Positions 797 through 22,695 of a DNA stretch of 40,147 bases are shown one piece after another. The first letter of the stretch is position 1; each line of letters begins with the position of its first letter. The translations under genes and the position numbers were made by a program. Source of the stretch: Candidatus Mailhella merdavium (lineage in GTDB: Bacteria; Desulfobacterota; Desulfovibrionia; Desulfovibrionales; Desulfovibrionaceae); the NCBI GenBank assembly GCA_019119045.1, contig DWXS01000004.1:1-40147 (forward strand). The letters are read 5' to 3'. Under the pieces are notes generated by a model. The model was not told where the DNA came from. It saw nothing but the letters and a program-made list of their open reading frames with translations, and made no database searches.

Positions 797-1333
797 TCAG
801 CGATTGCTCACCAGACAGACCTCGTCCCTGTCGTCGCGTTCTTCAAGAAGCACGTCGACGGTTTCGGCCCGGGAGGTTCTCACGCTTCGCCCCACATAAT
901 CGGCCTGAATGGGCAGTTCTCTGTGCCCGCGATCGACAAGCACCAGCAGCTCCACACAAGCCGGGCGGCCGTAATCGAGAATGGCTTCCAGCGCGGCGCG
1001 CACGGTACGCCCCGTGTACAGCACGTCGTCCACAAGAAGCACCTTGCGCCCTTCCAGAGGAAGAGGAATGGAAGAGGCCCCGAGCGAAGGAAAGGCCGCC
1101 AGCGAAGTCCAGTCATCCCGATACAGATTGATATCAAGAGTTCCGAGCGGAATATCCCTGCCGCATTTTTCCTTCAGCACACGGGTCAGACGGCGCGCCA
1201 GATCCCCGCCTCTGCGCTGGATTCCCACCAGCAGCAGCCTGTCCATGTCTTCGCCGTGTCTTTCCACGATCTCGCTCGCCAGACGCTCCAGCGTTCTTGC
1301 CATTTCTTCTCTGCTCAACAGTATCAGCTTCAT
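797..1333 (-). CDS. pyrR: Bifunctional pyrimidine regulator / uracil phosphoribosyltransferase PyrR
   Basis: This 178-residue protein matches the PyrR family in length. The type I phosphoribosyltransferase PRPP loop reads VLLVDDVLYTGRT around residue 95, and the N-terminal part (LSREEMARTLERLASEI) and the GIQRRGGDLARRL segment are typical of PyrR. In the family the protein makes UMP from uracil and PRPP, and in many bacteria it also binds pyr mRNA to control pyrimidine synthesis. The frame is open upstream to 1411, but the ATG at 1333 is preferred because it has a GGAG ribosome site about 8 nt upstream and gives the usual family length. No pyr biosynthetic genes are adjacent and I see no obvious PyrR-binding attenuator in the short leader, so regulatory function in this organism is inferred from family membership only. 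Confidence 0.93.
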   Translation of the reverse strand: MKLILLSREEMARTLERLASEIVERHGEDMDRLLLVGIQRRGGDLARRLTRVLKEKCGRDIPLGTLDINLYRDDWTSLAAFPSLGASSIPLPLEGRKVLLVDDVLYTGRTVRAALEAILDYGRPACVELLVLVDRGHRELPIQADYVGRSVRTSRAETVDVLLEERDDRDEVCLVSNR

Positions 1334-1386
1334 ATCAAATCTCCATGCGATGCCGGAAATGAACACCTTTACGATCCATGCCCCGT

Positions 1387-1415
1387 ATCCTACGTTTTTT
1401 CGGGGTGACAATCAA
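1387..1415 (-). promoter_or_regulatory. Probable pyrR promoter
   Basis: On the minus strand TTGATT (1410-1415) and TAGGAT (1387-1392) are separated by exactly 17 nt, each with four consensus matches. The 5' leader would be about 47 nt before the preferred start codon. Confidence 0.4.
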
Positions 1416-1438
1416 AGGCCGTTATTTCGTTTTCATTG

Positions 1439-1466
1439 TTGACAAAGCGTACGCCTGTTCTTAATT
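1439..1466 (+). promoter_or_regulatory. Probable promoter of the HesB-like pair
   Basis: A perfect TTGACA -35 box (1439-1444) is followed 16 nt later by TTAATT (1461-1466), a weak -10. It sits about 35 nt before the start codon at 1501 and is divergent from the pyrR promoter. Confidence 0.4.
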
Positions 1467-1500
1467 CAACTCCAGCATACACTTTGAATTCGGAGGAATC

Positions 1501-1827
1501 ATGATCAATCTGACTGAAAACGCCCGCAAGGAACTTGAGGCTTTCTTTTCCGACAAGCCCAAGTCCGGCATTCGCGTGTATCTCGCGGCCGGCGGCTGAC
1601 GCGGCCCTCGTCTGACTCTGGCTCTGGACGAGCCGAAAGGTGACGATACTGTAGTGGAAACGGACGGCTTTACGTTCTGCATTGAAACAGAACTTCTCAA
1701 TCGAATCGGCGGCGTAGATATTGACCTTTCCTATATGGGATTTACGGTCGAACCTCGCCAGCCCCTTGTCAGCGAAGGGGGATCGTCCTGTTCCTCCTGC
1801 GGCAGCGGCGGTTCATGCAGCATATGA
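1501..1827 (+). CDS. IscA/HesB-like protein with in-frame UGA, probable selenoprotein
   Basis: Reading from ATG 1501 (ribosome site GGAGG five bases upstream) gives 108 residues if the TGA at 1597-1599 is read as selenocysteine (residue 33). The frame then stays open for 75 codons to a TGA at 1825-1827. The whole product aligns with the neighbouring protein at 1916-2245, which has Cys33 at the UGA position (GGU-RGP against GGC-SGP). Shared segments include ARKELEAFFSDKPKS, GGFTFC/DGFTFC and IDLSYMGFT, and both end in a Cys/Gly/Ser-rich tail. A stem-loop at 1603-1635, right after the UGA, could act as a bacterial SECIS. HesB/IscA-like selenoproteins are known in anaerobes; the family is linked to Fe-S cluster handling. 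The alternative is a recent nonsense mutation (TGC to TGA). Automated annotation would probably truncate or miss this gene. Confidence 0.8.
1603..1635 (+). promoter_or_regulatory. SECIS-like stem-loop after the UGA codon
   Basis: Six perfect pairs CTCGTC/GACGAG (1607-1612 with 1627-1632), extended by CGG/CCG with a two-base bulge, close a 14-nt loop at 1613-1626. The helix starts four bases after the UGA, where bacterial SECIS elements sit. The loop does not show an obvious textbook GGU motif, so the call rests on position and stability. Confidence 0.5.
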
Positions 1828-1915
1828 TTCCTCCCGGCAGGGCCTTCCGTTCCAGTTCGTTTCCTTTTGCAACAACAACCTGCAACCATCATAAAACCGA
1901 TCTGCGGAGGGTCTC

Positions 1916-2245
1916 ATGCTGAAACTCAGCGAAAGCGCCCGCAAGGAGCTTGAAGCGTTCTTCTCTGACAAACCCAAATCCACCGTGCGTATTTATCTTG
2001 CGCCCGGCGGTTGCAGCGGCCCCCATCTGGGGCTTGCGCTTGACGAAGCCAATGATGACGACAAGGTCATCGAGGAAGGAGGCTTTACCTTCTGTGCCTC
2101 TCAGGGCCTGTGGGATCAGATCGGCGGCGTAAGCATCGATCTTTCCTATATGGGCTTCACGCTCGAACCCGACAATCCTCTCCCCGGCGGGGGCGGAAGC
2201 TGCAGCAGCGGATGCTGCGGCAGTTGCGGCAGCTGCGGACATTAA
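1916..2245 (+). CDS. IscA/HesB-like protein, cysteine paralogue
   Basis: This 109-residue protein is a close tandem paralogue of the gene at 1501. It starts at ATG 1916 with a GGAGGG ribosome site and carries Cys33 (GGCSGP) where the upstream copy has UGA. The fold expected for the HesB/IscA family is a small beta-rich domain; conserved cysteines in this protein are Cys33, the one in GGFTFC and the clustered cysteines of the C-terminal tail (SCSSGCCGSCGSCGH). The family binds or delivers Fe-S clusters or iron, but the tail differs from the canonical IscA CGC ending, so the exact role is unclear. The 88-nt gap after the first copy shows no terminator or promoter, so both are probably co-transcribed. 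Confidence 0.85.
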   Translation: MLKLSESARKELEAFFSDKPKSTVRIYLAPGGCSGPHLGLALDEANDDDKVIEEGGFTFCASQGLWDQIGGVSIDLSYMGFTLEPDNPLPGGGGSCSSGCCGSCGSCGH

Positions 2246-3005
2246 TGCCGGAGCTTTTGCCGCTGAAACGTCCCGGCAGCAGGAGCGGAGTCCTGCGAAA
2301 GACAGGTTCCCGTATTTTCTGTGACGACGCCATACCGTCATCAAGCCGGAGCGTTTTTGCGCATCCTGTCGGATAACAGACGGCAGATACCGTTCATGCG
2401 CCGCCGATCCCCCCTGTCGGCGGCGCATGTCGTTAACGCCCCCTTCTGCGGCCACAGCTCCGGCCTCCCCTGCCCCGGCAGAACGGCGTCTATGCGCCCG
2501 GCGGCAGAACGGCAACGCATACTCCGCCGGAGAGTGGAATCTTCCGACGTGCCGCGTCACCCTCCCATGTGGGGAGCATCGACAAAGCGCGATGCCCGCA
2601 GGCTGACCTCTCCCGCCTCCCCAGAAATGCGGGAGCCTTTGTCCCTGAAGAACATGAGAGAAGCGCAGCCCGGCGGAGGCTTCCCCCTGCCCGTGCCGGG
2701 ACGCCGTATCCGGAACCTCATCGAGCACAGGCCCGGCCGGATCTCCGCCCTTGTTCCGTCACAGGCCCGGCCACACGTTCGGACTCCCCTCCGGTCCAGC
2801 CTCCGAAGTACCGTATAGGGCCCCCCTACCCGAAGGCCGTTCCGTCGCGCGTTGTCCGTATGCGGCACTCTCATCTCCGTCCGCACATCATCATATTTGT
2901 GTCCCGGCCCGTTTGGATGTAGACATTAATACAGAAACACGTTTCCGGCTATGCGCCTGATCGTCTGAGCGTTTAGCGGCGTCACTTTCAGTGTTCGGAG
3001 GTTTC
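2246..3005. other. Gene-poor GC-rich spacer with one strong hairpin
   Basis: About 760 bp lie between the HesB-like pair and the zinc-ribbon gene. The open frames here on both strands translate to Arg/Pro-rich sequence with no recognisable family and no good ribosome site. A 12-bp perfect hairpin is present at 2396-2428. A short AT-rich patch around 2890-2945 could hold the promoter of the next gene, but I could not find a convincing pair of boxes. Confidence 0.5.
2396..2428. repeat. 12-bp perfect GC-rich inverted repeat
   Basis: ATGCGCCGCCGA (2396-2407) pairs perfectly with TCGGCGGCGCAT (2417-2428) around a 9-nt loop. No T-run follows on either strand. It could end transcription of the HesB-like pair with little U-tract, or stabilise the mRNA 3' end. 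Confidence 0.55.
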
Positions 3006-4926: not shown

Positions 4927-6471
4927 ATGCTCTCATCAGTGACAGACAGCGCGATCCTCACAAGTCAGACAGAAGCATACGCATCATCCTCCTCGGCAGC
5001 GGGGAGCCGCACGCAGCGCGGTTCCCGACAGTCCGACAGCGCAGAGTTTTCTTCCAAAGCTCTGAACCTGACCGATTTTTCCAGCCCGGTCTGGTCTGTC
5101 AACGGAAATGCTTCCTTTACAATGAGCGGCTACACCGCGCAGGGCACGCTGGTCACGCTTTCCATGGGAACACAGGGAAACGGCTCCTTCACTATGGGGA
5201 AATTTTCCCGCCAGAACAGCATGTTCAGACTCAGCGGTCAGGATACGGCGGAAGAACTGCGCATTACCTTTGAAGACGCTTCAGGAAAAATACAAAGCTA
5301 CGTTCTGGACGGGAATGCCCGTTTTGTGGAGACGGAAAACGGAGAGATCATGAAAGACGACTCCGGCCTCCTTTCCAAACGTGCGGACGGCACCGACAAC
5401 AACATGATTGTGGTGAATCTTGAGGATGACGCCGTCATAAACGGCGGTACAGGCGACGACGTCCTGTTCAACCTCGGACAAAACGCCGCGCTCAACGGCG
5501 GCGACGGCAACGACACCATCATGAGCATGGGAGACGGCGCAAGCCTTCAGGGAGGGAACGGCAACGATCTTCTGAAGGTCGTGCGGGACGTTCTGCGCAG
5601 AGAAGACGTCTCCGAAGGCCTGGGCATGGATAAGGACAGGGCCGGACTCGTGGGCTTTGAAAAAGGACAGTCCGTCTCCATGGACGGCGGGGCGGGAAAC
5701 GACATCATACAGTCGGACGTCAAGCTTCACGACTCGCAGATCAACGGCGGCGACGGCGACGACGTTCTGGACTTCGACACTCTGGTCGACAGCAGGCTTG
5801 ATATGGGAGTCGGCAACGACCGCATTTCCGCCGACGTTCTCTACGGCACAACGCTTTCAGGCGGCGACGGCGACGACAGCTTCAGCATAGGCACGGCCAG
5901 TCACTCCTCCTCGATCGACGGCGGCCGGGGCAACGATTCCTTCTCCGTTTCAAGGCTTGACGATCAAAGCATACTCCGCGGCGGAGACGGCGACGACAGC
6001 ATCAACGTTGCACTCGCCAATGCTTCTCTTATAGACGGCGGCGACGGCAACGACAGGCTTCATGTACGCAACGCGAAGGAAAGTGCGGTTCTCGGCGGAG
6101 ACGGCGACGATACGATCTGGGTGGAATATGCGGAACAAAGCCTCATCGACGGAGGCAGAGGAAACGACAGTATCCGTGTTGATGAGGCGCGCGAATCCCT
6201 GATCTCGGGCGGGGAAGGCGACGACAGTATTTCTGCGGCCGGAATAAGCAACCTGGTCGACGGCGGCTCCGGCAGCGACAGCATTGAGGCGCGGGGCAAC
6301 GCCGTGATCCTTGACGAAAATTCCGTCATCAGCAACACGACTTCCGGAAGAGAAATGAAAGATATGCTCGAAAGCATGCGCGAGGTTTTCGACAGGCTCC
6401 CGCTGAACGGAGCGGAACGCCAGAAATACGGGGCCGCCCTGCGCTATGCCGAGGAAGCCCTGCGCTTCTGA
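4927..6471 (+). CDS. RTX-like calcium-binding repeat protein
   Basis: This 514-residue acidic protein has no N-terminal signal peptide. Residues 1-45 are Ser/Ala-rich and residues 46-150 form a unique region. From residue 173 to about 455 there are fourteen GGxGxD-type units, such as GGTGDDVLF, GGDGNDTIM, GGDGDDSIN and GGSGSDSIE, the signature of calcium-binding beta-roll RTX proteins. The units are not the classical 9-residue tandem array. They recur every 18-20 residues, each followed by a non-glycine segment ending in a motif like SLIDGG. An insertion of about 35 residues separates the third and fourth units. The C-terminus (about 50 residues, ending in ALRF) is amphipathic. RTX proteins usually leave the cell by type I secretion, but no transporter genes are nearby. 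Function is unknown; an adhesin- or matrix-like role is a guess. Confidence 0.8.
   Translation: MLSSVTDSAILTSQTEAYASSSSAAGSRTQRGSRQSDSAEFSSKALNLTDFSSPVWSVNGNASFTMSGYTAQGTLVTLSMGTQGNGSFTMGKFSRQNSMFRLSGQDTAEELRITFEDASGKIQSYVLDGNARFVETENGEIMKDDSGLLSKRADGTDNNMIVVNLEDDAVINGGTGDDVLFNLGQNAALNGGDGNDTIMSMGDGASLQGGNGNDLLKVVRDVLRREDVSEGLGMDKDRAGLVGFEKGQSVSMDGGAGNDIIQSDVKLHDSQINGGDGDDVLDFDTLVDSRLDMGVGNDRISADVLYGTTLSGGDGDDSFSIGTASHSSSIDGGRGNDSFSVSRLDDQSILRGGDGDDSINVALANASLIDGGDGNDRLHVRNAKESAVLGGDGDDTIWVEYAEQSLIDGGRGNDSIRVDEARESLISGGEGDDSISAAGISNLVDGGSGSDSIEARGNAVILDENSVISNTTSGREMKDMLESMREVFDRLPLNGAERQKYGAALRYAEEALRF
5443..6280 (+). repeat. Fourteen degenerate GGxGxD-encoding repeats
   Basis: Imperfect direct repeats built around codons for GG(D/R/N)G(D/N)D recur at 54-60 bp intervals inside the RTX-like gene, with one larger gap at roughly 5580-5680. 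Confidence 0.8.
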
Positions 6472-11056: not shown

Positions 11057-11346
11057 AAAAGAACAATACCCTCGGGGCGGGCGGCTGGATGCTCGGCCTT
11101 GTGCTTTCCCTGCTGTTCAGCATGGTGCTCGGGGTCGCTCTGATCTGGCTCAGTATCGACAGAAACGATACCGCCTACTCCATCCACAAACTGCAACAGC
11201 GGGTGGAGGAAACACGAAGCCACGTCAACAAGCTTGAAGTAGAACGCGACAGCCTGCTTTCTCCCTATGTTCTGGGCAAAAAGGCGGAGGAACTCGGCAT
11301 GGGTATGGCCGATCCCGGTCAGGTTCGTCGCCTGGAAATACAGTAG
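11053..11346 (+). CDS. ftsL: Cell division protein FtsL
   Basis: 97 residues. A short cytoplasmic start is followed by one membrane segment at about residues 12-33 (MLGLVLSLLFSMVLGVALIW) and a predicted periplasmic coiled coil (IHKLQQRVEETRSHVNKLEVE). This is the bitopic layout of FtsL, which joins FtsQ and FtsB to activate FtsWI. Sequence conservation in this family is low, so the assignment rests mainly on topology and on its position between rsmH and ftsI. It overlaps rsmH by four bases and is followed seven bases later by ftsI. Confidence 0.85.
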   Translation: MKKNNTLGAGGWMLGLVLSLLFSMVLGVALIWLSIDRNDTAYSIHKLQQRVEETRSHVNKLEVERDSLLSPYVLGKKAEELGMGMADPGQVRRLEIQ

Positions 11347-11353
11347 GTACGCC

Positions 11354-13612
11354 ATGCGTTCGGGTTCTTCCATTTCGACACGCAGTTCCGGCCGGGGTTC
11401 ATCGTCCCGTCGGCTTCATGCCAACCAGCGCAGACCTTCCGGAGCAAAAGACTCCGGAAAGACCGTCGAGCAGCGGGACTGGCAGACCTTGCGTTTTCAG
11501 ATTGCAGCAGTTCTGTTTGCCGCAATCTGGATCGTATTGTGGGGGCGCGCCTTTTACGTTCAGCTCATCATGGGGCCGGAACTGGCCGAACAGGCCATGC
11601 GTCAGCATACCTACACCGAACTTGTGGAAGCGCGCAGAGGAACCATCTATGACCGCAACGGTCAGGTTCTGGCCCGCAGCGTACAGGTTCGCTCCGTCTA
11701 TGCCAATCCCCGTGAAATACGGGATCCCAGACAGACGGCTCTTGCCCTCGCGCCCATTCTGGGGCTGGAAGCCTCTTCCCTGCAGAAGCAGCTGGAAAAG
11801 GATCGCTCCTTCATCTGGATCAGCCGTAAAATCGACGACGCCACGGCAAGCGCGGTACGCAAGGCGGCCCTTCCCGGAATAGGTCTTTCGCGGGAGTATG
11901 AACGGGTCTATCCGTACAAGCACCTCGCCGGGCAGCTGCTCGGCTTTGTCGGTCTGGACAATGTCGGTCTGGAAGGCGTCGAGCGTTCGTTCAACGAAGT
12001 TCTGGCAGGAACCTCGCAGAAAAACGTCGTACAGCGGGACGGCACGGGCCGCGGCTTCTATACCGACAGCGCAAGCGCGGCGCAGGGCAAGGATCTGTAT
12101 CTCACGCTGGACGTACAGATTCAGTTCATTGCGGAAGAAGTCATTGCGGAAGCCGTGCGGGAAGCGCAGGCAAAATGGGGCGGAGTGCTTATTTCCGACG
12201 TGGAGTCGGGAGAAATTCTGGCCTGGGCGCAGTATCCCTTCTTCAATCCCAATACCTTCCGTCTTTCCACGCCGGAAGAATACCGCAATCGCCTCGCCGC
12301 CGACGCGCTGGAACCGGGCTCGACGCTCAAGCCCTTCCTCATGGCCGCCGCGCTGGAAGAAAACATCGTCACTCCGGACACCATATTTTACTGTGAAAAC
12401 GGCACCTGGCAGACCAACAAGATCGTCATAGGCGACGACGGTCGCGCCTACAAGGATCTGCCCGTTTCCAAGCTGCTGACCTATTCGAGCAACATAGGCA
12501 TGGCAAAGCTCGCCCTCGAGGTCGGCGCGCAGACCTACCGCACCTACCTGACAAGACTCGGCTTCGGCCAGAGAACGGGCATAGGCATAGGCGAAAGCAA
12601 GGGTATTCTGCATCCCATTCAGGACTGGATGGAAGTCAACCTGATGTCCGCCGGATTCGGCCAGAGCCTTTCCGTGACGGGCATCCAGATGCTTCAGGCC
12701 TGGACGACGCTGGCCAACGGCGGAGTATTCCGTCCGCTGCGCCTTGTCCGCGACGAAACGGGCAGGGAGCATCTGGCAAGCCAGCGCGTGTTCAGTGCCA
12801 AGACGGCGGATGAAGTCATGCGCATGCTCATCGACGTCGTGGACGGCGACGGCACGGGAACCCGCGCGCGCATTCCCGGCATCCGCGTCGCCGGCAAGAC
12901 GGGCACGGCCCAGAAGGCGGACCCTCACGGCAAGAACGGCTACGGAGAAAAACGTCTCGCCTCCTTCGGGGGTATCGTTCCGGCCGATAAGCCGCGCTAT
13001 GTCATCTGGGTCATGCTTGACGAACCGACAACCATCACCTACGGCGGCAGACTGGCCGCGCCGGTGTTCCAGAAAGTCGCAAGCCGCGTCCTCGCATACG
13101 GCGGCTACCTGCCGGGAGTGGTGTTCGCCACGGCGGAAGACGCCGCCTCCGCCTCCTCCCGGACGGCCAGACCGGCAAAGCCCTCGAAAGTGAGGGAAGG
13201 CACCAGCCCCGACGTCACGGGCATGAGCCTGCGCCGGGCCATGGAACGCTTTGCCGTTGCCGGAGCCGTTCCAGAAGTCCGGGGACAGGGTCTGACGGTA
13301 TATCACCAGCAACCGGATCCCGGAGAAGCTCTGCTGGAGGACGGCAAGCCCCGGCCCTGCGTCGTCTGGATGTCGCAGGAAGCCTATGAAAGCGATCTGC
13401 GCAAGGCCCAGGCACAGGCGGCGGAAAAAAAGAACGCGGCCGCACAGGCCCCCGCCGCAGCCAAAGGATCGGGGGAAACGGCGTCATCAGCGCAGGCAAC
13501 ACTTCTGGAAACGGCGGAACGGGACAATCTCGTCCCCCTCCCGCAGACAGGCGGGGAAACAACGCGACGTACTGCACAGGACGCCGCAGCATCCGGAAAC
13601 AGCTCCCGGTAG
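11354..13612 (+). CDS. ftsI: Septal peptidoglycan transpeptidase FtsI (PBP3) with a C-terminal PASTA domain
   Basis: 752 residues. A basic cytoplasmic tail is followed by a membrane anchor at about residues 47-68, a pedestal domain (RRGTIYDRNGQVLARS) and a transpeptidase domain. Active-site motifs are S323-TLK326, S378-S-N380 and K515-T-G517. The C-terminal part (residues about 617-675, DVTGMSLRRAMERFAVAGA and so on) is a single PASTA domain. An Ala/Lys-rich low-complexity tail follows. FtsI crosslinks septal peptidoglycan with FtsW. PASTA domains are unusual on Gram-negative FtsI outside delta-proteobacteria. The frame opens further upstream inside ftsL, but ATG 11354, with an AGGT site, gives the normal N-terminus. 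Confidence 0.95.
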   Translation: MRSGSSISTRSSGRGSSSRRLHANQRRPSGAKDSGKTVEQRDWQTLRFQIAAVLFAAIWIVLWGRAFYVQLIMGPELAEQAMRQHTYTELVEARRGTIYDRNGQVLARSVQVRSVYANPREIRDPRQTALALAPILGLEASSLQKQLEKDRSFIWISRKIDDATASAVRKAALPGIGLSREYERVYPYKHLAGQLLGFVGLDNVGLEGVERSFNEVLAGTSQKNVVQRDGTGRGFYTDSASAAQGKDLYLTLDVQIQFIAEEVIAEAVREAQAKWGGVLISDVESGEILAWAQYPFFNPNTFRLSTPEEYRNRLAADALEPGSTLKPFLMAAALEENIVTPDTIFYCENGTWQTNKIVIGDDGRAYKDLPVSKLLTYSSNIGMAKLALEVGAQTYRTYLTRLGFGQRTGIGIGESKGILHPIQDWMEVNLMSAGFGQSLSVTGIQMLQAWTTLANGGVFRPLRLVRDETGREHLASQRVFSAKTADEVMRMLIDVVDGDGTGTRARIPGIRVAGKTGTAQKADPHGKNGYGEKRLASFGGIVPADKPRYVIWVMLDEPTTITYGGRLAAPVFQKVASRVLAYGGYLPGVVFATAEDAASASSRTARPAKPSKVREGTSPDVTGMSLRRAMERFAVAGAVPEVRGQGLTVYHQQPDPGEALLEDGKPRPCVVWMSQEAYESDLRKAQAQAAEKKNAAAQAPAAAKGSGETASSAQATLLETAERDNLVPLPQTGGETTRRTAQDAAASGNSSR

Positions 13613-13621
13613 GGATACGCC

Positions 13622-15112
13622 ATGGCCATGACATTGCAGGAACTTTGCCACAGCATCAGAAAGAACCCCCGCGCTCTTCGGACCGATTCCAGGAAGGTGG
13701 AAGCGGGAGATATTTTTGTAGCCCTGCCCCCAGCCGCCCGCGTCGGAGCGGACGTTGCCGATCAGCGCGCAGACCACATTCAGGACGCCCTGCGCCGGGG
13801 TGCGGGAATCGTCGTTGCCGATCCCGCCTTTGCTCCGCTCCTTGCTTCCGCCGCGGAGGACGGCAGCCGGAATTGCGGATTTCTCCCCGTATCCGACACC
13901 CGCGCCGCACTAGGACGGCTGGCTGCGGCAAATTTCGGCACGGAACATCTGCCCTTCCCCGTCATCGGCGTAACGGGCACGAACGGCAAGACGACCTGCG
14001 CCTATCTGCTGGAACATGCGTGGAAATCCCGCGGTGCGAGAGTCGGCGTTCTCGGCACGGTCAGCTATCGCTGGCCGGGACATGAAGAAGCGGCGCCCCT
14101 CACCACGCCCGGCTGTCTGGAAATTCACGAATGTCTGGCCGCCATGCGCAGGGCGGGCGTCGACGCGGCCATTATGGAAGTGTCCTCCCATGCGCTGGAT
14201 CAGAACAGAATTGCCGGTGTGGAGTTTGCCGGAGCCGTGTTCACCAATCTGACGCAGGATCACCTCGACTACCACGACGGGATGGAAGACTATTTTTCCG
14301 CCAAGAAAAAACTTTTCACCTCCGTCCCCAGAGCGGACAAGGTCATGGCCGTCAATGCCGACGATCCTTACGGCCGACGTCTTCTTGCGGAAATTCCCCG
14401 CGCCGTTCCCTTCGGTTCCGCAGGAAACGCCGACGGCGGACTCTGCTGCGAGGTGCTTTCCGACACGCCTGCCGGCATGGAACTGCGCCTGAGCTGGCAG
14501 GGAACGAGCTGGCCGCTCAACAGCCCTCTTGTGGGAAAACACAACGCGTCCAATCTTTCCGCAGTCATTGCGCTGTGCCTGCAGATGGGATTTACGCCCT
14601 CCGATTTTTCCTGCTTTCACGACTTCTTCGGAGTATCCGGCCGTCTGGAGCGCATTCCCGTACCGGAAACGGGCAGGGGCGCAGGCGTGGGCATATTCGT
14701 GGATTACGCGCACACCCCCGACGCGCTCACCCGCGCGCAGGAGGCTCTGAGAGACGCCGGTTTCTCGCGGATCATCACCGTGTTCGGCTGCGGCGGAGAC
14801 AGAGACCGCACCAAGCGGCCGCTCATGGGCAAATCCGTCGCGAGCGGCAGCGACATCGCCATACTGACCTCCGACAATCCGCGCACGGAAGATCCGGAAC
14901 GAATCATGGACGACGTCATGCCCGGTCTCGCCGGGGGGAAGGATATACACCGCGAAGCGGATCGGCGCAGGGCTCTTGCGCTCGCGCTTGAACTTGCCAG
15001 ACCCGGCGACGCCGTACTGGTGGCGGGAAAAGGGCACGAGCCGTATCAGATCATCGGCACCGTCAAACATCCTTTCAGCGATCAGCAAACACTCCGGGAG
15101 CTTTTGCAGTGA
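13622..15112 (+). CDS. murE: UDP-MurNAc-tripeptide synthetase MurE
   Basis: 496 residues. The enzyme adds the third stem-peptide residue to UDP-MurNAc-L-Ala-D-Glu in the cytoplasm. The ATP loop is GVTGTNGKTT (Lys123). Other Mur-ligase motifs are EVSSHALDQNRIAG, NLTQDHLDYHDGMEDY, GKHNASNLSA and IFVDYAHTPDAL. The substrate-selecting motif is D418-N-P-R421, which predicts meso-diaminopimelate as the added residue, as in most Gram-negatives. It lies nine bases after ftsI, and its stop overlaps the murF start. Confidence 0.97.
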   Translation: MAMTLQELCHSIRKNPRALRTDSRKVEAGDIFVALPPAARVGADVADQRADHIQDALRRGAGIVVADPAFAPLLASAAEDGSRNCGFLPVSDTRAALGRLAAANFGTEHLPFPVIGVTGTNGKTTCAYLLEHAWKSRGARVGVLGTVSYRWPGHEEAAPLTTPGCLEIHECLAAMRRAGVDAAIMEVSSHALDQNRIAGVEFAGAVFTNLTQDHLDYHDGMEDYFSAKKKLFTSVPRADKVMAVNADDPYGRRLLAEIPRAVPFGSAGNADGGLCCEVLSDTPAGMELRLSWQGTSWPLNSPLVGKHNASNLSAVIALCLQMGFTPSDFSCFHDFFGVSGRLERIPVPETGRGAGVGIFVDYAHTPDALTRAQEALRDAGFSRIITVFGCGGDRDRTKRPLMGKSVASGSDIAILTSDNPRTEDPERIMDDVMPGLAGGKDIHREADRRRALALALELARPGDAVLVAGKGHEPYQIIGTVKHPFSDQQTLRELLQ

Positions 15113-16554
15113 GCATGACGATAAGGGAAATGGCGCAGGCCGCCGGCGCGGAACTCATTCTGCCCGAAGCCGCGCAGCAGCATACGGCCGGCAGGGAAGT
15201 TCCCCTTGTCTGCCACGACAGCCGAGACGTGATCCCGGGTTCGCTTTTCGTCTGCATACGCGGCGAACACAGCGACGGTCACGACTTTGCCGCGCAGGCC
15301 GTGCAGTCCGGTGCGGCGGCCCTACTGGCGGAACGCTCTCCCTTCGACGGCCTTCCGCCCGTGCCCCTGCTTCTGGCAGAGGCCCGGGATTCCGTGCGCG
15401 CCCTCGGACGCATGGGGAACGCCTGGAGAAAGCGGTACTCCGGCCCCGTCGTCGGCATTACCGGCACGGCGGGAAAAACGACGCTCAAGGAAATACTCGC
15501 GCACACACTGACGGCCGTACGGGGAGGAACGGGAAAGGTCGCCCGCAATCCGCTCAATCTGAACACGCAGATCGGCCTGCCCGAATCCATGCTGGCCGCA
15601 AAGGGAGACGAGGATTTCTGGGTCATGGAGGCCGGCATCAGCAATCCCGGCGACATGGACGAACTCGGCCCCATCATGGAACCGACTCTGGCCGTCATCC
15701 TCAACGCGGGGGCGGGGCACAGTCTCGGGCTGGGCGATGCGGGCTGCGGCGGCGCGGCGCATTACAAGTCGCGTCTGCTGAAATACATTACCCCGGGAGG
15801 AAGCGCGCTCGTCAGCGCGGACTATCCGGATCTGGTTCGGGAAAGTCAGGCCGTCCGCGGGGATATCATCCGTTTTTCCACCGCAAGACGGGATGTGCCG
15901 TATCATGCGCGCTATCTCGGTCTGACAGCGGAAGGGAAAAGCCGCTGTCTGCTCTGGCTGGACGGGCACGAACTGGAAGCGGAAAGCTGCCTTTCCGGCC
16001 CCTTTGCTGCGGAAATCATGATTGCGGCGGGAGCAGCCGCGCATCTTCTCGGCCTGAAGGATGAAGAAATTCTCTCCGGGCTTGCCTCGGCACAGCCTGC
16101 CGCCCAGCGTTTCAACCGCCGCGAATGTGCCGGATGGACGCTGCTGGACGATACCTACAACGCCAACCCTCTCTCCTGTTCGCGCATGATCGAGGCCACG
16201 GCCGCCCTGCGGCGCGAGGGAGAAAAACTTGCCTTCGTCATGGGGGAAATGCTCGAACTCGGCAACCTTGCCGAAAGCTCCCACGAAGAGCTGGGAACGG
16301 CCCTGGCTGAAGCAGGCGCCGACGCCGTCTTCTGGATCGGCGGATACGGCGACGCCGTTTTCCGGGGCCTGGAAAAGGGCGGCTTTCAGGGCCGCTTTAC
16401 GGCATTGAACGCGCATGAGGACTTTCTCCCCGCATTTTCCGCGTGGGAGGAAACATACCGCGACGGAAACTCCGGGATAGTCCTGTTCAAGGGATCACGG
16501 GGCAATCATCTGGAAAAACTGGTCAAGGTCTTTGAGGAAGCCCATGCTTTATAA
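15109..16554 (+). CDS. murF: UDP-MurNAc-tripeptide:D-Ala-D-Ala ligase MurF
   Basis: 481 residues. It adds D-Ala-D-Ala to UDP-MurNAc-tripeptide, the last cytoplasmic step before MraY. Motifs: [14 protein letters not shown] in the N-terminal domain, the ATP loop [10 protein letters not shown], the ligase motifs [14 protein letters not shown] and [12 protein letters not shown], and [22 protein letters not shown] 15109 overlaps the murE stop and has GGGAG eight bases upstream; ATG 15115 is the alternative. Its 3' end overlaps mraY by 11 bases. Confidence 0.95.
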
Positions 16555-17620
16555 TCTGCTTGTCCCGCTCAGCACGGATTTCGGTGCGCTCAATGTGTTC
16601 CGCTACATTACGTTCCGGGCCTCCGTCGCCATGGCCTTTGCCCTGATCCTGACCATCGCGGTGGGGCCGCGCTTCATCGCCGTACTGCACAAGCTCAAGT
16701 TCGGCCAGTACATTCATGAAGATGTGCTTGCCCACATGAACAAGGCGGGCACGCCGACCATGGGCGGACTGCTGATTATGTTCGGCACGGTGGTTTCCAC
16801 CCTGCTGTGGGCCGATATCACCAATTTTTACATTCTGCTCATGCTCTTCGTCTTTGTGGGCTTCGGCATGGTCGGACTGGTGGACGACTGGATGAAAATC
16901 CGCTTCCACCACAACCGAGGACTGAGTCCCCGGGCCAAATTTCTGGGGCAGCTTGTCGTCTCCTGCATTTCTCTGGCCCTGCTGCTCAACAATCCCGAAT
17001 ATTCCACCCGGCTTTCCGTTCCCTTCTTCAAGGGCTTCATGCCCGATCTCGGCATATTCTATCTGGTGTTCGCCTGCGTTGTCCTCATAGGCTCGTCCAA
17101 TGCGGTGAATCTCACCGACGGGCTGGACGGACTGGCCATTCTGCCCGTCGTCATCTGCGCCGGGGTCTACATGGTGTTCCTCTATGTGGCCGGGCACGCC
17201 CAGTTTGCCCAGTATCTTCAGTTCCCCTTTGTGCCGGGCGTGGGCGAAGTGGTCATTTTCTGCGGCGCGCTCATGGGCGCGGGGCTGGGCTTCCTCTGGT
17301 ACAACGCCCTTCCCGCGCAGGTTTTCATGGGCGACGTCGGTTCCCTCAGTCTGGGCGGAGCCATAGGCTTCATGGCCGTGCTGTGCAAGCAGGAACTTAT
17401 CCTGATCCTCGTGGGAGGACTTTTCGTCATTGAAACACTGTCCGTCATTCTTCAGGTAGCCTATTTCCGTTATACGGGAGGGCGCCGTCTCTTCCTCATG
17501 GCTCCTCTGCATCACCATTTTGAAAAGAAGGGACTGCCGGAATCCAAAATCATCGTGCGTTTCTGGATTCTCTCCGTACTGTTCGCTCTGGCCGCCCTTT
17601 CCATACTCAAACTTCGCTGA
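16544..17620 (+). CDS. mraY: Phospho-MurNAc-pentapeptide transferase MraY
   Basis: 358 residues with about ten membrane helices. It transfers phospho-MurNAc-pentapeptide to undecaprenyl phosphate to form lipid I at the inner face of the membrane. Family motifs are [21 protein letters not shown] (catalytic acidic pair), [28 protein letters not shown] and [14 protein letters not shown] 16544 is favoured over an upstream TTG by a GAGGA site seven bases upstream. The start lies inside the end of murF. Confidence 0.97.
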
Positions 17621-17649
17621 ACGTTTCCAGCGTCTCCACGGAGGCTGAT

Positions 17650-18966
17650 ATGACCTGTAATCCCGCGCTGCTCACCCCCATCAATGCCGATACCGCCGCA
17701 ATCGTCGTAGGCGGCGGACGCTCCGGCAGAGCCGCCGCAAAACTGCTGCGCCGTCTCGGAGCATCCGTCCGGCTGCTGGAAAAAGATCTTTCCGTCCTTC
17801 CGGAAGACTTCACGGCATGGGCCGCATCCTCGGGAGTGGAGATTCTGGGCGGGGAACACAAGCCGGAATATTTTCTGGACGCGGACATTCTCATTCCGAG
17901 TCCGGGCGCGGCCGTCTCCACAATCCGCCCCCTGCTGACCCCCGGCGAAGAGCCGGAAATCATGGCGGAAACGGAACTGGCCTGGCGTCAGCTTGAAGGA
18001 GAACCCGTTCTTGCCGTCACCGGAACCAGCGGCAAGACGACCACAACCAGTCTGTGCGCCGCCATGCTCGAAGCGCAGGGGCTTGATGTCTTTCTCGGCG
18101 GAAATATCGGCACGCCGCTTTCGGAATATGTGCTGGCCAGAGCGGAAGGACGCCCGAAAGCGGATGCGCTGGCTCTAGAACTTTCCAGCTTCCAGTTGCA
18201 GACCTGTACCACGCTGCGCCCGAGGGTGGCTCTTCTGCTGAATATTTCCGCCAATCATCTCGACTACCACCGGGATATGAAGGAATATATCGAATCCAAG
18301 ATGCGCCTGTTCCGCTGTCAGGATGCCTCCTGTCTCGCCGTGTTCGGCCCCGGTCTGCGCGGCCTGCCGGAACATATGAACGTCAAGGCGCGCGTCGTCT
18401 ATTTTGATCCTGATTCCGGCCGCTTTCCCGACATGCAGCTCATCGGCCCTCATAACCATGCCAATGCCGAAGCAGCATGGCAGGCCTGCCGGGAATTCGG
18501 CGTCACGCTGGAAAACGCCCGCCGCGCCGTAAAGGAGTTCAAGTCCCTTCCGCACCGGCTCGAGCGCATCGCGGAAAAAGACGGCGTATTGTATGTCAAC
18601 GACTCCAAATGTACCACTGTCGAAGCCCTCAAGGTGGCCCTCGCCTCCTTTGACCGCCCCGTACTGCTGATGGCGGGCGGCAAATTCAAGGGCGGCGATC
18701 TGGAAGGGCTGGCCCCGCTGCTGAAAGAACATGTGAAGGCGGTAGGCCTGTTCGGAGGCTCGCGGGATATTTTTGAAAAGGCCTGGGGCACGCTGCTGCC
18801 GACAAGCTGGGATGAAAATCTTCACAAGGTTCTGACCAGACTGCGCGGCATGGCGAAGCCCGGCGACGTGATCCTGCTTGCTCCGGCCACCTCGAGTTAC
18901 GATCAATATAAAAATTACCTTGAACGCGGCGACGACTTCAGACGCGCCGTCGGGGAACTGAACTGA
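17650..18966 (+). CDS. murD: UDP-MurNAc-L-Ala:D-Glu ligase MurD
   Basis: 438 residues. It adds D-glutamate to UDP-MurNAc-L-Ala. The N-terminal nucleotide-binding domain has VVGGGRSGRAAAKLL. The ATP loop is [14 protein letters not shown], followed by ELSSFQLQT, NISANHLDYHRDMKEYI, SLPHRLERI, VNDSKCTTVEALKVAL and LMAGGKFKGGDL. A strong GGAGG site precedes ATG 17650. Only two bases separate its stop from ftsW. Confidence 0.97.
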   Translation: MTCNPALLTPINADTAAIVVGGGRSGRAAAKLLRRLGASVRLLEKDLSVLPEDFTAWAASSGVEILGGEHKPEYFLDADILIPSPGAAVSTIRPLLTPGEEPEIMAETELAWRQLEGEPVLAVTGTSGKTTTTSLCAAMLEAQGLDVFLGGNIGTPLSEYVLARAEGRPKADALALELSSFQLQTCTTLRPRVALLLNISANHLDYHRDMKEYIESKMRLFRCQDASCLAVFGPGLRGLPEHMNVKARVVYFDPDSGRFPDMQLIGPHNHANAEAAWQACREFGVTLENARRAVKEFKSLPHRLERIAEKDGVLYVNDSKCTTVEALKVALASFDRPVLLMAGGKFKGGDLEGLAPLLKEHVKAVGLFGGSRDIFEKAWGTLLPTSWDENLHKVLTRLRGMAKPGDVILLAPATSSYDQYKNYLERGDDFRRAVGELN

Positions 18967-18968
18967 AT

Positions 18969-20150
18969 ATGGCCTACATGACGACTTCTCCCTTTCTCAG
19001 CTCCGCTTCCGGAAGCCGTGCCGCCCGGAACACGCTCCGCACCCCTGCCCGTGCGCCGGAGGCTCCCGGCCCCATGGACTGGTGGCTGGCGGCCGTCGTT
19101 CTGACGCTGCTGTGCATCGGCCTGCTCATGGTGCTGTCCACCAGCGGCGTCATCGGCGAGCGTCTGGCGGGAGACAAGTATCTGTTCTTCAAGCGTCAGC
19201 TCGTGTTCACGGCCATAGGGAGCGTGGCGCTGATCATTGCGGCCCGCTTGCCCCGCCGCTTCATCGACGGCCTTGCCTATCCTTCGCTCTTTCTGGCCTT
19301 TCTTCTGCTTCTGGCCTGCATCACGCCCTTCGGACTCCGGGTCAACGGCGCAAGCCGCTGGATACCCGTCGGGGGCTTTTCCCTCCAGCCCATGGAATTC
19401 GCGCGCATCGCGCTGGTTCTGTATCTTGCCTATTTCATGAGTACCAAGCAGGATCTGGTAAAAACCTTCATCAAGGGCGTGATTCCGCCCTTTGCCGTGA
19501 CGGGCGTCCTCTGCTGCCTGCTGCTGCTCCAGCCGGACTTCGGCGGAGCCATGGTCATGATCACGCTGCTGTTTTTCATGTGTCTGGTCGGCGGAACCCG
19601 CTTTCTCTATCTGTTTCTGACCATCGCTCTGGCTCTGGGTTCAGCCGCGATGCTGGTCATGGTGTCCCCCTACCGTATGCGGCGTCTGCTGGCCTTTCTC
19701 GATCCCTTCAAGGACGCGCTGGATACCGGCTATCAGCTGGTGCAGTCGCTGTACGCCCTGGGGAGCGGCGGCCTTTTCGGGCTGGGCATGGGCAACAGCA
19801 TGCAGAAAATGCTGTATCTGCCCGAAGCGCACAACGACTTCATCATGGCCGTGGTCGGGGAAGAGCTGGGCTTTGTCGGCATAACGCTGATCATGTTGCT
19901 TTTTGCCATGCTCTTTGCCCGCTGCTATCGAATCATCATGGGACAGAGCGTCCTGCGCGACCGCCTCACCGCTTTCGGGATCACGCTGGTCATCGCGCTG
20001 GGCGCGGTACTCAACCTCGCCGTAGTTCTCGGCATGGCTCCGCCCAAAGGCGTGGCGATGCCCTTTCTCAGCTACGGCGGCAGCAGCCTCATTGCCAGCA
20101 TGATCTGTGTGGGCCTGCTGCTGAACTATTCACGAACGTCGCGGGAGTAA
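18969..20150 (+). CDS. ftsW: Septal peptidoglycan polymerase FtsW
   Basis: 393 residues. A cytoplasmic leader of about 35 residues is followed by about ten membrane helices of the SEDS family. FtsW polymerises lipid II into septal glycan strands together with FtsI. Conserved SEDS features: DKYLFFKRQLVF, VNGASRWIPVGGFSLQP, LLLQPDFGGAMVMI, YQLVQSLYALGSGGLFGLG, EAHNDFIMAVVGEELGF and MPFLSYGGSSLIASM. The start at ATG 18969 is two bases after murD. A long second frame through this gene, continuous with murG, is a shadow. Confidence 0.96.
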   Translation: MAYMTTSPFLSSASGSRAARNTLRTPARAPEAPGPMDWWLAAVVLTLLCIGLLMVLSTSGVIGERLAGDKYLFFKRQLVFTAIGSVALIIAARLPRRFIDGLAYPSLFLAFLLLLACITPFGLRVNGASRWIPVGGFSLQPMEFARIALVLYLAYFMSTKQDLVKTFIKGVIPPFAVTGVLCCLLLLQPDFGGAMVMITLLFFMCLVGGTRFLYLFLTIALALGSAAMLVMVSPYRMRRLLAFLDPFKDALDTGYQLVQSLYALGSGGLFGLGMGNSMQKMLYLPEAHNDFIMAVVGEELGFVGITLIMLLFAMLFARCYRIIMGQSVLRDRLTAFGITLVIALGAVLNLAVVLGMAPPKGVAMPFLSYGGSSLIASMICVGLLLNYSRTSRE

Positions 20151-20155
20151 ATTCT

Positions 20156-21280
20156 ATGGCTTTGCGCGTCATTCTTACCACCGGAGGTACGGGCGGACAT
20201 ATTTTCCCCGCGCTGGCCGTGGCCGAGGCCCTGAAAAAACGTCTGCCGGATACGGAAATTCTCTTCATCGGCGGACTGTACGGCCCGGAATCCGAACTGG
20301 CGGCCCGGGCGGGGCTTGAATTCTACGGACTTGCCGTCCGCGGCATGCTCGGGCGGGGACTCAGGGCCCTGCCGGCTCTGGGCGCAATGCTCAAGGGCAT
20401 TGCGCAGGCCAGAACCCTGATCAGGGAACGCCGTCCCGACGTGGTCATGGGCTTCGGCGGCTATGCCGCCTTCGCCACCGTGTTCGCCGCCTTCACCCGG
20501 GGCCTGCCCACCGGCATACACGAACAGAACGCCGTTCCCGGCGCGGCCAACCGTCTTCTGGGCAAGGTTGTGCGCAAAATCTGCCTTTCTCTCCCTGATC
20601 TCGGGCACGCCTTCCCCGCCGCAAAATGCGTCATGACGGGGAACCCCATACGCGCCGATATTGCCGAACTGGGCAAAAGCGGCGTCCGGGAAGCCCTGCT
20701 GAAAAAAAAGGCCGGAAGGGAACGGCGTCATCTGCTGATCATGGGAGGAAGCCAGGGAGCCCGCGCGCTCAACTCGCTGGGCATCACCATGCTTGCCAGA
20801 CTGCGGGATGCCGGCGTGGATATTCTGCATCAGACGGGAACAAAGGATCTGGATCGGGTGCGCGCGGCCTACCGCAGCCACGGTTATGCGACGGAAGATG
20901 TGGAGGCGATGGTTCTTCCCTTCATCCATGACATGGCCGCCGCCTATGAATGGGCGGATCTGGCCCTGTGCCGGGCAGGAGCCACCTCGCTGGCCGAACT
21001 TGCGGCCACGGGCACGCCTTCCGTCCTCGTCCCCTTTCCCTATGCCGCCCACGATCACCAAACCGGCAATGCCAGGGCCATGCGCAATGCCGGCGGCGCG
21101 CTTCTGGTGCCGGAAAGCGAAATGGAAGAACTCAACATGTCGGAAATGATCCTCTCTCTCCTGAACGATCATGAGCGTCTGCGGATGATGAGCGACGGCG
21201 CCCTCACGCTGGCCCGTCCTCAGGCTGCGGAAAGCGTGGCAGAAGAAATCCTCGCTCTGGCGCGGCTCAGGAACGCCTGA
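20156..21280 (+). CDS. murG: Lipid II-forming GlcNAc transferase MurG
   Basis: 374 residues of the GT-B glycosyltransferase fold. MurG adds GlcNAc to lipid I to make lipid II on the cytoplasmic face. Motifs: [19 protein letters not shown] near the N-terminus, [14 protein letters not shown]-type substrate loop [16 protein letters not shown], the UDP-GlcNAc site [10 protein letters not shown], and [15 protein letters not shown] with the [14 protein letters not shown] segment. ATG 20156 is used because the ribosome site GGGAG overlaps the ftsW stop five bases upstream. Confidence 0.97.
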
Positions 21281-21312
21281 AACACCCTTCTTCCGCAAGG
21301 ACGGATGTTCGA

Positions 21313-22695
21313 ATGAATTCCAAAATCAAAGCCATACACATGATCGGTATCGGCGGCTCGGGCATGAGCGGCATAGCTGAAGTGCTGCTGAATCTCGGCT
21401 ACAAGGTACAGGGATCGGATATTGCAGAAAGCGCGACGGTGCGGCAGCTCCGGCAGCTCGGCGCGGATATCCACATCGGACACGCGGCCGAAAACCTCGG
21501 CAATCCGCAGGTCGTCGTGCGTTCCTCCGCCGTGGGAGACGACAATCCGGAAGTCATGGCTGCGCGCTCCCGGGGAATCCCCGTCATTCCCCGTGCGGAA
21601 ATGCTGGCCGAACTGATGCGCCTGCGCACGGGCATCGCCGTTGCGGGAACCCACGGCAAAACAACGACGACATCGCTCACCGCGTCCATCTTCAAGGCGG
21701 CGGGCCTTGATCCTACCGTGATCATCGGAGGGCTGCTCAACGCTTACGGAGCCAACGGCCACCTCGGGGAAAGCGAATACATCATCGCCGAGGCCGACGA
21801 ATCGGACGGCTCCTTCCTCTGCCTGTTCCCCATCATCAATGTAGTCACCAATGTGGATTATGATCACATCGATCACTACGGCACGCAGGACGCCATCGAC
21901 GACGCCTTCGTCGCGTTCATGAACAAGGTTCCGTTCTACGGGGTCAACGTGGTGTGCGCCGACGATCCCGGCGTTCGCCGTCTTCTTCCCCGCGTGAAAC
22001 GCCCCGTGCTTACCTACGGCTTCGGACAGGACTGCGCCATCCGGGGCGAAATCATGGAATGTGCCGCCAGCAGCTGGTTCCGCGTCTTTCTGAAGGATTC
22101 CCGGGGTGTGGAAAGCGAATTCGCCGAAGTGGAACTCGCCCAGCCCGGCCGTCACAACGTTCTCAACGCCCTTGCCGCCATCGGCGTGGGCCTTCAGGCC
22201 GGCATAGATCCCCGCGACTGTGTGGCCGGGCTTGCCGGATTCAGCGGCGTGGGGCGGCGTTTCGAGCGCAAGGGAGAAAAGAACGGCATCACGATCATCG
22301 ACGACTACGGCCACCATCCGGCGGAGATTGCCGCCACGCTGGCAACCGTGAAGCAGGTGTTCCCGGGACGGCGCGTGGTCATGGTGTTCCAGCCGCACCG
22401 CTTTACCCGCACGCAGGCTCTTTTCGGCGAATTCTGCCAGAGTTTCGAAGCCGTGGACAAGCTTTTCCTTGCCGAAATATATCCGGCTTCGGAAAAGCCC
22501 ATTCCCGGCGTGAGCGGCGCCAGCCTCGCTCAGGGCATACGTCAGGTTTCGCGCACGGACGTTACCTTCATGCCCGGTTTTGACGCCATTGTCGAAGCCC
22601 TGAAAGACGAACTGAAGCCCGGCGACGTTCTGATCACCCAGGGCGCGGGCAGTGTGACCACGGTAGGCCCGCGCGTTCTGGCAGGCATGGAGTAG
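21313..22695 (+). CDS. murC: UDP-MurNAc:L-Ala ligase MurC
   Basis: 460 residues. It adds L-alanine to UDP-MurNAc. Motifs: [17 protein letters not shown] at the N-terminus, the ATP loop [66 protein letters not shown] and [12 protein letters not shown]. The 32-bp gap after murG is the largest between murD and murB but shows no terminator. The ribosome site is AAGGA, somewhat far from the ATG. Confidence 0.97.

Follow-up and report, generated by a model that had tools for sequence, protein, structure and literature searches.

An in-frame TGA in the first of two tandem genes, at the codon where the second gene has a cysteine, raises the question of whether it specifies selenocysteine (Sec) and, if so, why a Sec and a Cys version of one protein should stand side by side. 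The genes lie in a 40,147-nucleotide stretch of DNA from the gut sulfate reducer Candidatus Mailhella merdavium (contig DWXS01000004.1, positions 1 to 40,147; hereafter the window) and encode IscA/HesB-family paralogs. The Sec copy (copy 1, 1501..1827, + strand, 108 aa) starts with ATG at 1501, has the TGA at 1597-1599 as codon 33 and ends with an ordinary TGA stop at 1825-1827, and the Cys copy (copy 2, 1916..2245, + strand, 109 aa) starts with ATG at 1916, has TGC at 2012-2014 as codon 33 and ends with TAA at 2243-2245. The alignment of the TGA with Cys33 of the paralog, which an earlier note on this DNA had pointed out, is therefore exact. Each gene is preceded by a GGAGG ribosome binding site, assigned from sequence (1492..1496 for the Sec copy and 1906..1910 for the Cys copy, both + strand), and the protein cores are 67% identical. 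The closest named locus is that of Candidatus Mailhella excrementigallinarum (L135), whose first protein is 94% identical to copy 1.

One answer would be that copy 1 is a broken gene, owing to a nonsense mutation or an assembly error. The 75 open codons that the earlier note had counted past the TGA are present, but because 75 codons also stay open in 5.1% of draws of random sequence of the same composition, the open frame is weak evidence alone. L135 keeps the TGA of copy 1, and comparison of the two genes gave a dN/dS of ~0.06 both before the TGA (dN 0.028, dS 0.47, 32 codons) and after it (dN 0.029, dS 0.48, 55 codons); the stretch behind the TGA is under purifying selection. The genome itself (3.0 Mb, 87.8% complete) contains all four components of the Sec machinery that the earlier note had proposed to look for: a tRNA-Sec (selC; 82.9 bits, anticodon TCA), selA and selB (595 and 346 bits), and selD (G000:C30:463-1413). 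The selD gene has one in-frame TGA, so the selenophosphate synthetase is probably a selenoprotein as well.

To follow codon 33 through the order, 169 copies were extracted from 87 genomes, which were chosen among those with matches and are not a random sample. At this position 77 copies have TGA, 83 have Cys (TGC or TGT) and nine have other residues, so that 160 of the 169 have U or C there. No copy has a TGA elsewhere inside the domain, the remaining TGAs being at the very end of the hits; the column of codon 33 is the sole internal TGA column.

The stem-loop that had been claimed behind the TGA is present as a predicted bacterial SECIS hairpin inside the reading frame, GGCUC[UGGAC]GAGCC (1620..1634, + strand), with GGCTC at 1620-1624, the loop at 1625-1629, GAGCC at 1630-1634 and 20 nt from the TGA to the stem. 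Its support is comparative; the folding energy of the window hairpin is ordinary (z -0.59, with 53 of 200 shuffles as good, and z -0.32 against synonymous recoding). The core CTCTGGAYGAG was found in 75 of 76 Sec copies, at the same distance from the TGA in 74, versus one of 83 Cys copies; copy 2 of the window is without it. This count covers 76 of the 77 Sec copies, one having too little flanking sequence, and the single Sec copy without the core has one loop base different. Where Ala-Leu-Asp-Glu is encoded, GCT CTG GAY GAG is used in 75/75 Sec copies versus 1/45 Cys copies, whereas codon use elsewhere in these genes predicts ~2%. With G-U counted, all five stem pairs form in the 75 motif-bearing Sec copies, pair 5 being G-C in 64 and U-A in 11, and pair 4 G-C in 67 and G-U in 8. 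Sec copies also fold better than their synonymous recodings, with a mean z of -1.14 (n=76) versus -0.41 for Cys copies (n=83; p 3e-5).

The named loci overlap the genomes of the order set, so the two tallies are not independent; among them the core is present in 56 of 57 Sec rows and in 5 of 69 non-U rows. Four of these five are true Cys copies, and the fifth is taken to be L206, a partial hit with its Sec outside the counted range. The sole Sec row without the core, L154 (1580-1640), reads GGCCC[UGGAC]GGGCC, a double change from U-A to C-G that keeps the pair at the cost of replacing Glu44 with Gly. The contig of L154 is labelled Betaproteobacteria and is perhaps mis-binned, because the protein is Desulfovibrio-like. 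Proline at position 45 is found in 92% of Sec copies versus 32% of Cys copies (genus-weighted), a bias that would fit a demand of the RNA. An Rfam search of window positions 1400-2300 returned only two matches (E 0.69 and 0.84), both far under the gathering score. The constant GCT CTG GAY GAG behind the TGA could help annotators to separate Sec from Cys copies. The earlier remark that ordinary gene callers would miss or truncate copy 1 holds only in part, as NCBIfam has a model of the Sec family (NF038090).

On these comparisons, copy 1 has a conserved bacterial SECIS just behind its UGA, and the TGA at 1597-1599 (+ strand) very probably encodes selenocysteine 33, with SelB on the 1620-1634 hairpin presumably directing its insertion. 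The earlier note had held that a genome without Sec machinery, or relatives with TGC/TGT in the same copy and no conserved stem-loop, would point to a nonsense mutation; the machinery and the conserved stem-loop are both present. Nothing beyond the TGA itself speaks for a broken gene, and the sharing of the TGA with L135 and across the order, the SECIS, the machinery and the dN/dS of ~0.06 past the TGA leave that explanation practically no probability; we regard it as refuted.

The assignment of both proteins to the IscA/HesB family was borne out by profile searches and by structure prediction. Copies 1 and 2 scored 101.1 and 98.2 bits against NCBIfam NF038090 (IscA_HesB_Se; curated cut-off 85), and 29.8 and 31.3 bits against PF01521 by hmmscan (cut-off 26.3). 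We found nothing that would exclude the two copies from NF038090, the name of which suggests a Sec-linked subfamily; both U33 and C33 fit the GG(U/C)xGP site of the family (our reading rather than a published definition), and their tandem pairing is a difference of arrangement, not of sequence. With TIGR01911 (HesB_rel_seleno), under which two reviews file HesB-like selenoproteins in the passages concerned (PMC13188914, PMC9312934), the scores were 36.6 and 42.7 bits, under the cut-off of 66.35; it is a related subfamily of which the copies are not members, sharing with them the UxGP/CxGP motif, of which the UxGP form is given for HesB-like selenoproteins in one of these reviews (PMC13188914). 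The IscA, SufA and ErpA models, where they matched, scored far under their cut-offs. An AlphaFold2 model (pLDDT 82.9, the tail 94-108 under 50) has a predicted IscA/SufA fold, the top Foldseek hits being 1x0g, 1r94, 2d2a and 1s98, with E down to 2.6e-7 and TM scores on the query of 0.54-0.68 for the nine hits at E <= 0.001.

We reasoned that residue 33 would correspond to the cysteine that serves A-type Fe-S carriers as the first cluster ligand. A phmmer alignment places Cys33 of copy 2 on the cysteine of the GGCSG site of 1nwb, and all 36 aligned rows share Cys97, Cys100 and Cys106; the tail with these cysteines is modelled at pLDDT <50, so that the geometry of a cluster site is unseen in the model. 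The A-type carrier ligand motif, which we take to be C-x63-CxC, agrees with the spacing between U/C33 and C97, but the tail here is CxxC and not CxC. Residue 33 and Cys97, Cys100 and Cys106 are the likely ligands, and copy 1, its Sec33 supplying a selenolate at the first position, would most likely bind and hand over an Fe-S cluster (or iron), as homology and fold suggest. In E. coli, A-type carriers take clusters from a scaffold and deliver them to targets (PMC2682760). The window proteins have in common with E. coli IscA, SufA and ErpA the fold, the PF01521 domain and the first ligand position, and differ from them in the Sec of copy 1 and in the CxxC-type tail. Searches of the genome with NF038090 and TIGR00049, which detect carriers in 8 of 14 control genomes, E. 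coli among them, returned only the two copies as A-type carriers. PF01521 as a genome query found neither copy and is too lossy here, so that the lack of further carriers is seen with these two models only, in a genome that is 87.8% complete. A Pfam scan of ten window ORFs identified no isc or suf genes.

Lists of HesB-like selenoproteins date back to 2006 or earlier; the tables of Zhang et al. 2006 include them for D. vulgaris and D. desulfuricans along with two Sec-to-Cys events, and a figure legend describes a remnant SECIS-like structure in the Cys copy of Desulfitobacterium hafniense (PMC1794560). These proteins and DVU_1382 of Desulfovibrio vulgaris (PMC1914089) are, like copy 1, IscA/HesB homologs with Sec; the parts of those papers that concern them mention neither a neighboring Cys copy nor a common pairing, and the pairing with a fixed SECIS across genera is added here. 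The function of the HesB-like selenoprotein of M. maripaludis was called not clear in a passage published in 2024 (PMC11097638). In the passages we found on HesB/IscA-type proteins, DVU1382 and Desulfovibrio selenoproteins the pairing is not described, which is weak evidence of absence. The selenoprotein itself is a normal member of a known family, and what is new is the regular occurrence of the Sec/Cys couple and its origin on several occasions.

The earlier note had treated the side-by-side Sec and Cys genes as exceptional, but the arrangement is regular. Sec and Cys copies are neighbors on one strand in 56 of the 71 extracted Desulfovibrionaceae genomes, picked among those with matches, and in 13 genus codes. 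The 57 Sec/Cys junctions include 47 with Sec first and 10 with Cys first, 54 of them within ~400 bases. Loci titled Mailhella have Sec then Cys in 9 of 11; in the other two, L138 and L147, the copy behind Sec is without the cysteine, as is a copy in G120. In Solidesulfovibrio (g7) loci, for example L193:2512-2814, a third, degenerate paralog follows the Sec/Cys pair, its site being occupied by Ala, Glu or Asp. At the phylum level, NF038090 matched at least 111 of 197 genomes. Among the matches listed, most outside Desulfovibrionaceae carry a TGA, its position within the match being unchecked, and TGA/non-TGA neighbors occur in G172, G173, G237, G260 and G303, so that such neighbors appear in other families of the phylum too.

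Whether the couple arose on a single or on multiple occasions was assessed with a tree of 160 copies, built on 87 columns and containing many open forks; left out of the 169 were six degenerate third paralogs of g7, two copies of G048 and the G060 fragment. The Sec/Cys label requires 24 changes on this tree, nine of which are forced by starred branches. Constraining the Cys copies to one clade was rejected (p-AU 8.8e-6 for 21 tested copies of a reduced set and 6e-64 for 19 Desulfovibrionaceae copies, the long G115 Cys row being left out). A single ancient duplication with unbroken descent is thereby rejected under the model used, on 87 columns only, and because the Cys copies are not one clade the couple appears to have arisen or been renewed repeatedly. 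In 54 genomes with one copy of each kind, the Sec and Cys proteins of the same genome are 62% identical on average, and between genera Sec-Sec identity is 53% and Cys-Cys identity 46%. Where residues are identical, the codons agree in 52% of cases if both copies come from one genome, in 50% if the second is from a congeneric genome and in 43% if it is from a different genus; copies of one genome are hardly closer in codons than genus mates, which argues against recent gene conversion, whereas an older conversion would look similar to repeated duplication. In much of genus g3 the Sec and Cys copies form separate groups, so pairs persist through speciation. We favor repeated duplication, with one daughter changing from Sec to Cys.

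The machinery is widespread in the order: selA is above the cut-off in 133 of 150 genomes, and selB is above it in 7 of the other 17 and not in 10. Six genomes without selA and selB that are at least 98% complete (G091, G112, G126, G134, G137 and G140) have no TGA copy, and five of them keep a Cys copy. In the tree, the Cys copies of G112, G126 and G140 are placed among the Sec copies of their genus, and that of G137 among Cys copies (moderate support). Of the remaining four genomes without selA and selB, G030 and G070 have non-TGA copies only and G043 has no match. In the fourth, G060 (82% complete), a TGA copy lies at the edge of a contig and counts against the selenocysteine reading. Lineages that lost the machinery seem to have responded in two ways, some by replacing Sec and others by discarding the Sec gene. 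L144:502-810 lies in a 1.4-Mb Desulfovibrio genome where selA was not found; its TGT, with an intact hairpin behind it, is the relic of a recent replacement of Sec by Cys. In G126 the hairpin behind the TGT deviates at one base. L167:1246-1557 has TGC with an intact hairpin in a genome with selA, so replacement occurs even where Sec can be made. G105, the only congener among the 150 order genomes, has selA and selB and a Cys copy only, and so can do without a Sec copy. G062 and G142 resemble G105 in having selA and selB and no clear Sec copy, G142 giving a partial match with TGA (23.8 bits).

The pair has a probable promoter (1439..1466, + strand), recognized by its conservation and consisting of TTGACA at 1439-1444, a 16-nt spacer and TTAATT at 1461-1466. 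The sequence TTGACAAA is invariant in 13 aligned upstream regions of Mailhella and near relatives, with a T/A-rich stretch at the -10 distance; a consensus promoter scan, whose -10 rule this stretch does not satisfy, did not report 1439-1466. Among 52 first junctions under 450 nt, TTGAC[AT] occurs within 130 nt upstream of the pair in 49, versus 124 of 2910 random 130-mers. Between the copies it occurs, additionally or instead, in 19 of the 52, including all sampled junctions of g5, g6, g7, g15 and g19; one shared mRNA is therefore not general, and at these junctions the second copy may be expressed independently. The window and 11 of its 12 aligned loci have the box in front of the Sec gene alone; the exception, L162:1501-2287, is a very similar Sec/Cys pair with a second TTGACAAA box between the genes, which looks as though gene and promoter had been copied together. 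For the group of the window we infer one bicistronic mRNA with the Sec gene first, and the likely operon of the earlier note gains support from the spacing and the single conserved promoter box. No intrinsic terminator was found in 1330-2450. By eye, an inverted repeat of the GGGGAG/CTCCCC type with no T run after it is present between the genes of L136, L137, L139, L140, L143 and L145 and absent from the window; it is possibly an element of mRNA processing or stability.

Our reading as a whole, which we hold to be likely, is that copy 1 is a genuine NF038090 selenoprotein and copy 2 its Cys partner, in this genus probably on the same mRNA, and that the pair has re-arisen and serves distinct roles rather than backup. 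Both copies would probably come from a Sec ancestor by tandem duplication, one daughter losing the Sec codon and the SECIS, and the couple, having arisen or been renewed several times, would usually be kept. The likeliest reason for keeping it would be different clients or cluster properties, or a mixed dimer, rather than replacement at low selenium. A stricter version strikes us as rather doubtful: the two proteins, one with a selenolate and one with a thiolate ligand, would work only together, as a Sec/Cys heterodimer or as the two steps of a relay, would make up the whole A-type carrier set of these anaerobes, and would have been re-created several times by duplicating the Sec gene and converting one daughter to Cys. 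If this were true, the exchange of S for Se in one subunit would tune the affinity or redox potential of the carrier. The division of labor by selenium supply, with the Cys copy standing in for the Sec copy when selenium is scarce, has a precedent in Methanococcus maripaludis, where HrsM represses Cys isoforms of methanogenesis enzymes at adequate selenium in a transcriptional switch (PMC11097638, in the passages on this switch). There, as here, one organism has Sec and Cys forms of one protein, but the window genes, unlike those repressed by HrsM, appear to share one promoter. The Cys copies kept by five of six near-complete relatives without selA and selB, and the box between the copies at 19 of 52 junctions, also agree with a backup. 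The Sec gene nevertheless comes first at 47 of 57 junctions, and in the one-promoter layout of the window and 11 of its 12 aligned loci poor selenium would give less Sec product and perhaps, through untranslated mRNA, less Cys product, the opposite of a backup, as polarity from an undecoded UGA would, if it had any effect, reduce expression of the downstream Cys gene. The copies also differ beyond the site, Tyr at position 78 being found in 93% of Sec versus 32% of Cys copies (genus-weighted). The one-promoter layout would be better explained by separate roles or a mixed dimer, and a backup appears unlikely.

Exchange of Sec for Cys is a real process in the family, as L144 and L167 in other Desulfovibrio attest, and the couple could be a passing stage in which a tandem duplication is followed by takeover by the Cys daughter and departure of the Sec gene. 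Besides these two replacements, G105, which kept the Cys copy only, is what this course of events would leave behind. The Sec copies, however, are the better conserved of the two, both in identity between genera (53% versus 46%) and in mean core entropy (1.26 versus 1.58 bits), and genus-level groups in the tree suggest long persistence of both copies under separate purifying selection. Most phylum matches listed outside Desulfovibrionaceae carry a TGA, at unchecked positions, and the Sec-Cys order is kept in 9 of 11 loci titled Mailhella. The "snapshot of exchange" proposed in the earlier note is thus a poor fit for the window locus, G105 notwithstanding, and we give a passing stage only a slim chance. 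The dozens of species with adjacent Sec and Cys copies, the replacements, the fossil SECIS and the Sec-less relatives offer natural matched comparisons that could show what selenium contributes at an Fe-S ligand position.

Upstream of the pair lies a divergent phosphoribosyltransferase gene (797..1411, - strand, PF00156), the product of which we take to be PyrR-like. A homolog, again divergent, is the first upstream gene in 7 genera. Recurring neighbors of the pairs, presumably PyrR-like, argB-like and hslVU-like to judge by their sequences, were considered as functional operon partners, but look like synteny (annotated neighbors only). Elsewhere in the window, 4927-6471 (+ strand) encodes a 514-aa protein with many GGxGxD-type repeats, which Pfam matches to RTX calcium-binding repeats below the threshold, and 11267-22695 (+ strand) contains division and cell-wall genes, with Pfam matches to a penicillin-binding transpeptidase, Mur ligases and an FtsW/RodA-family protein.
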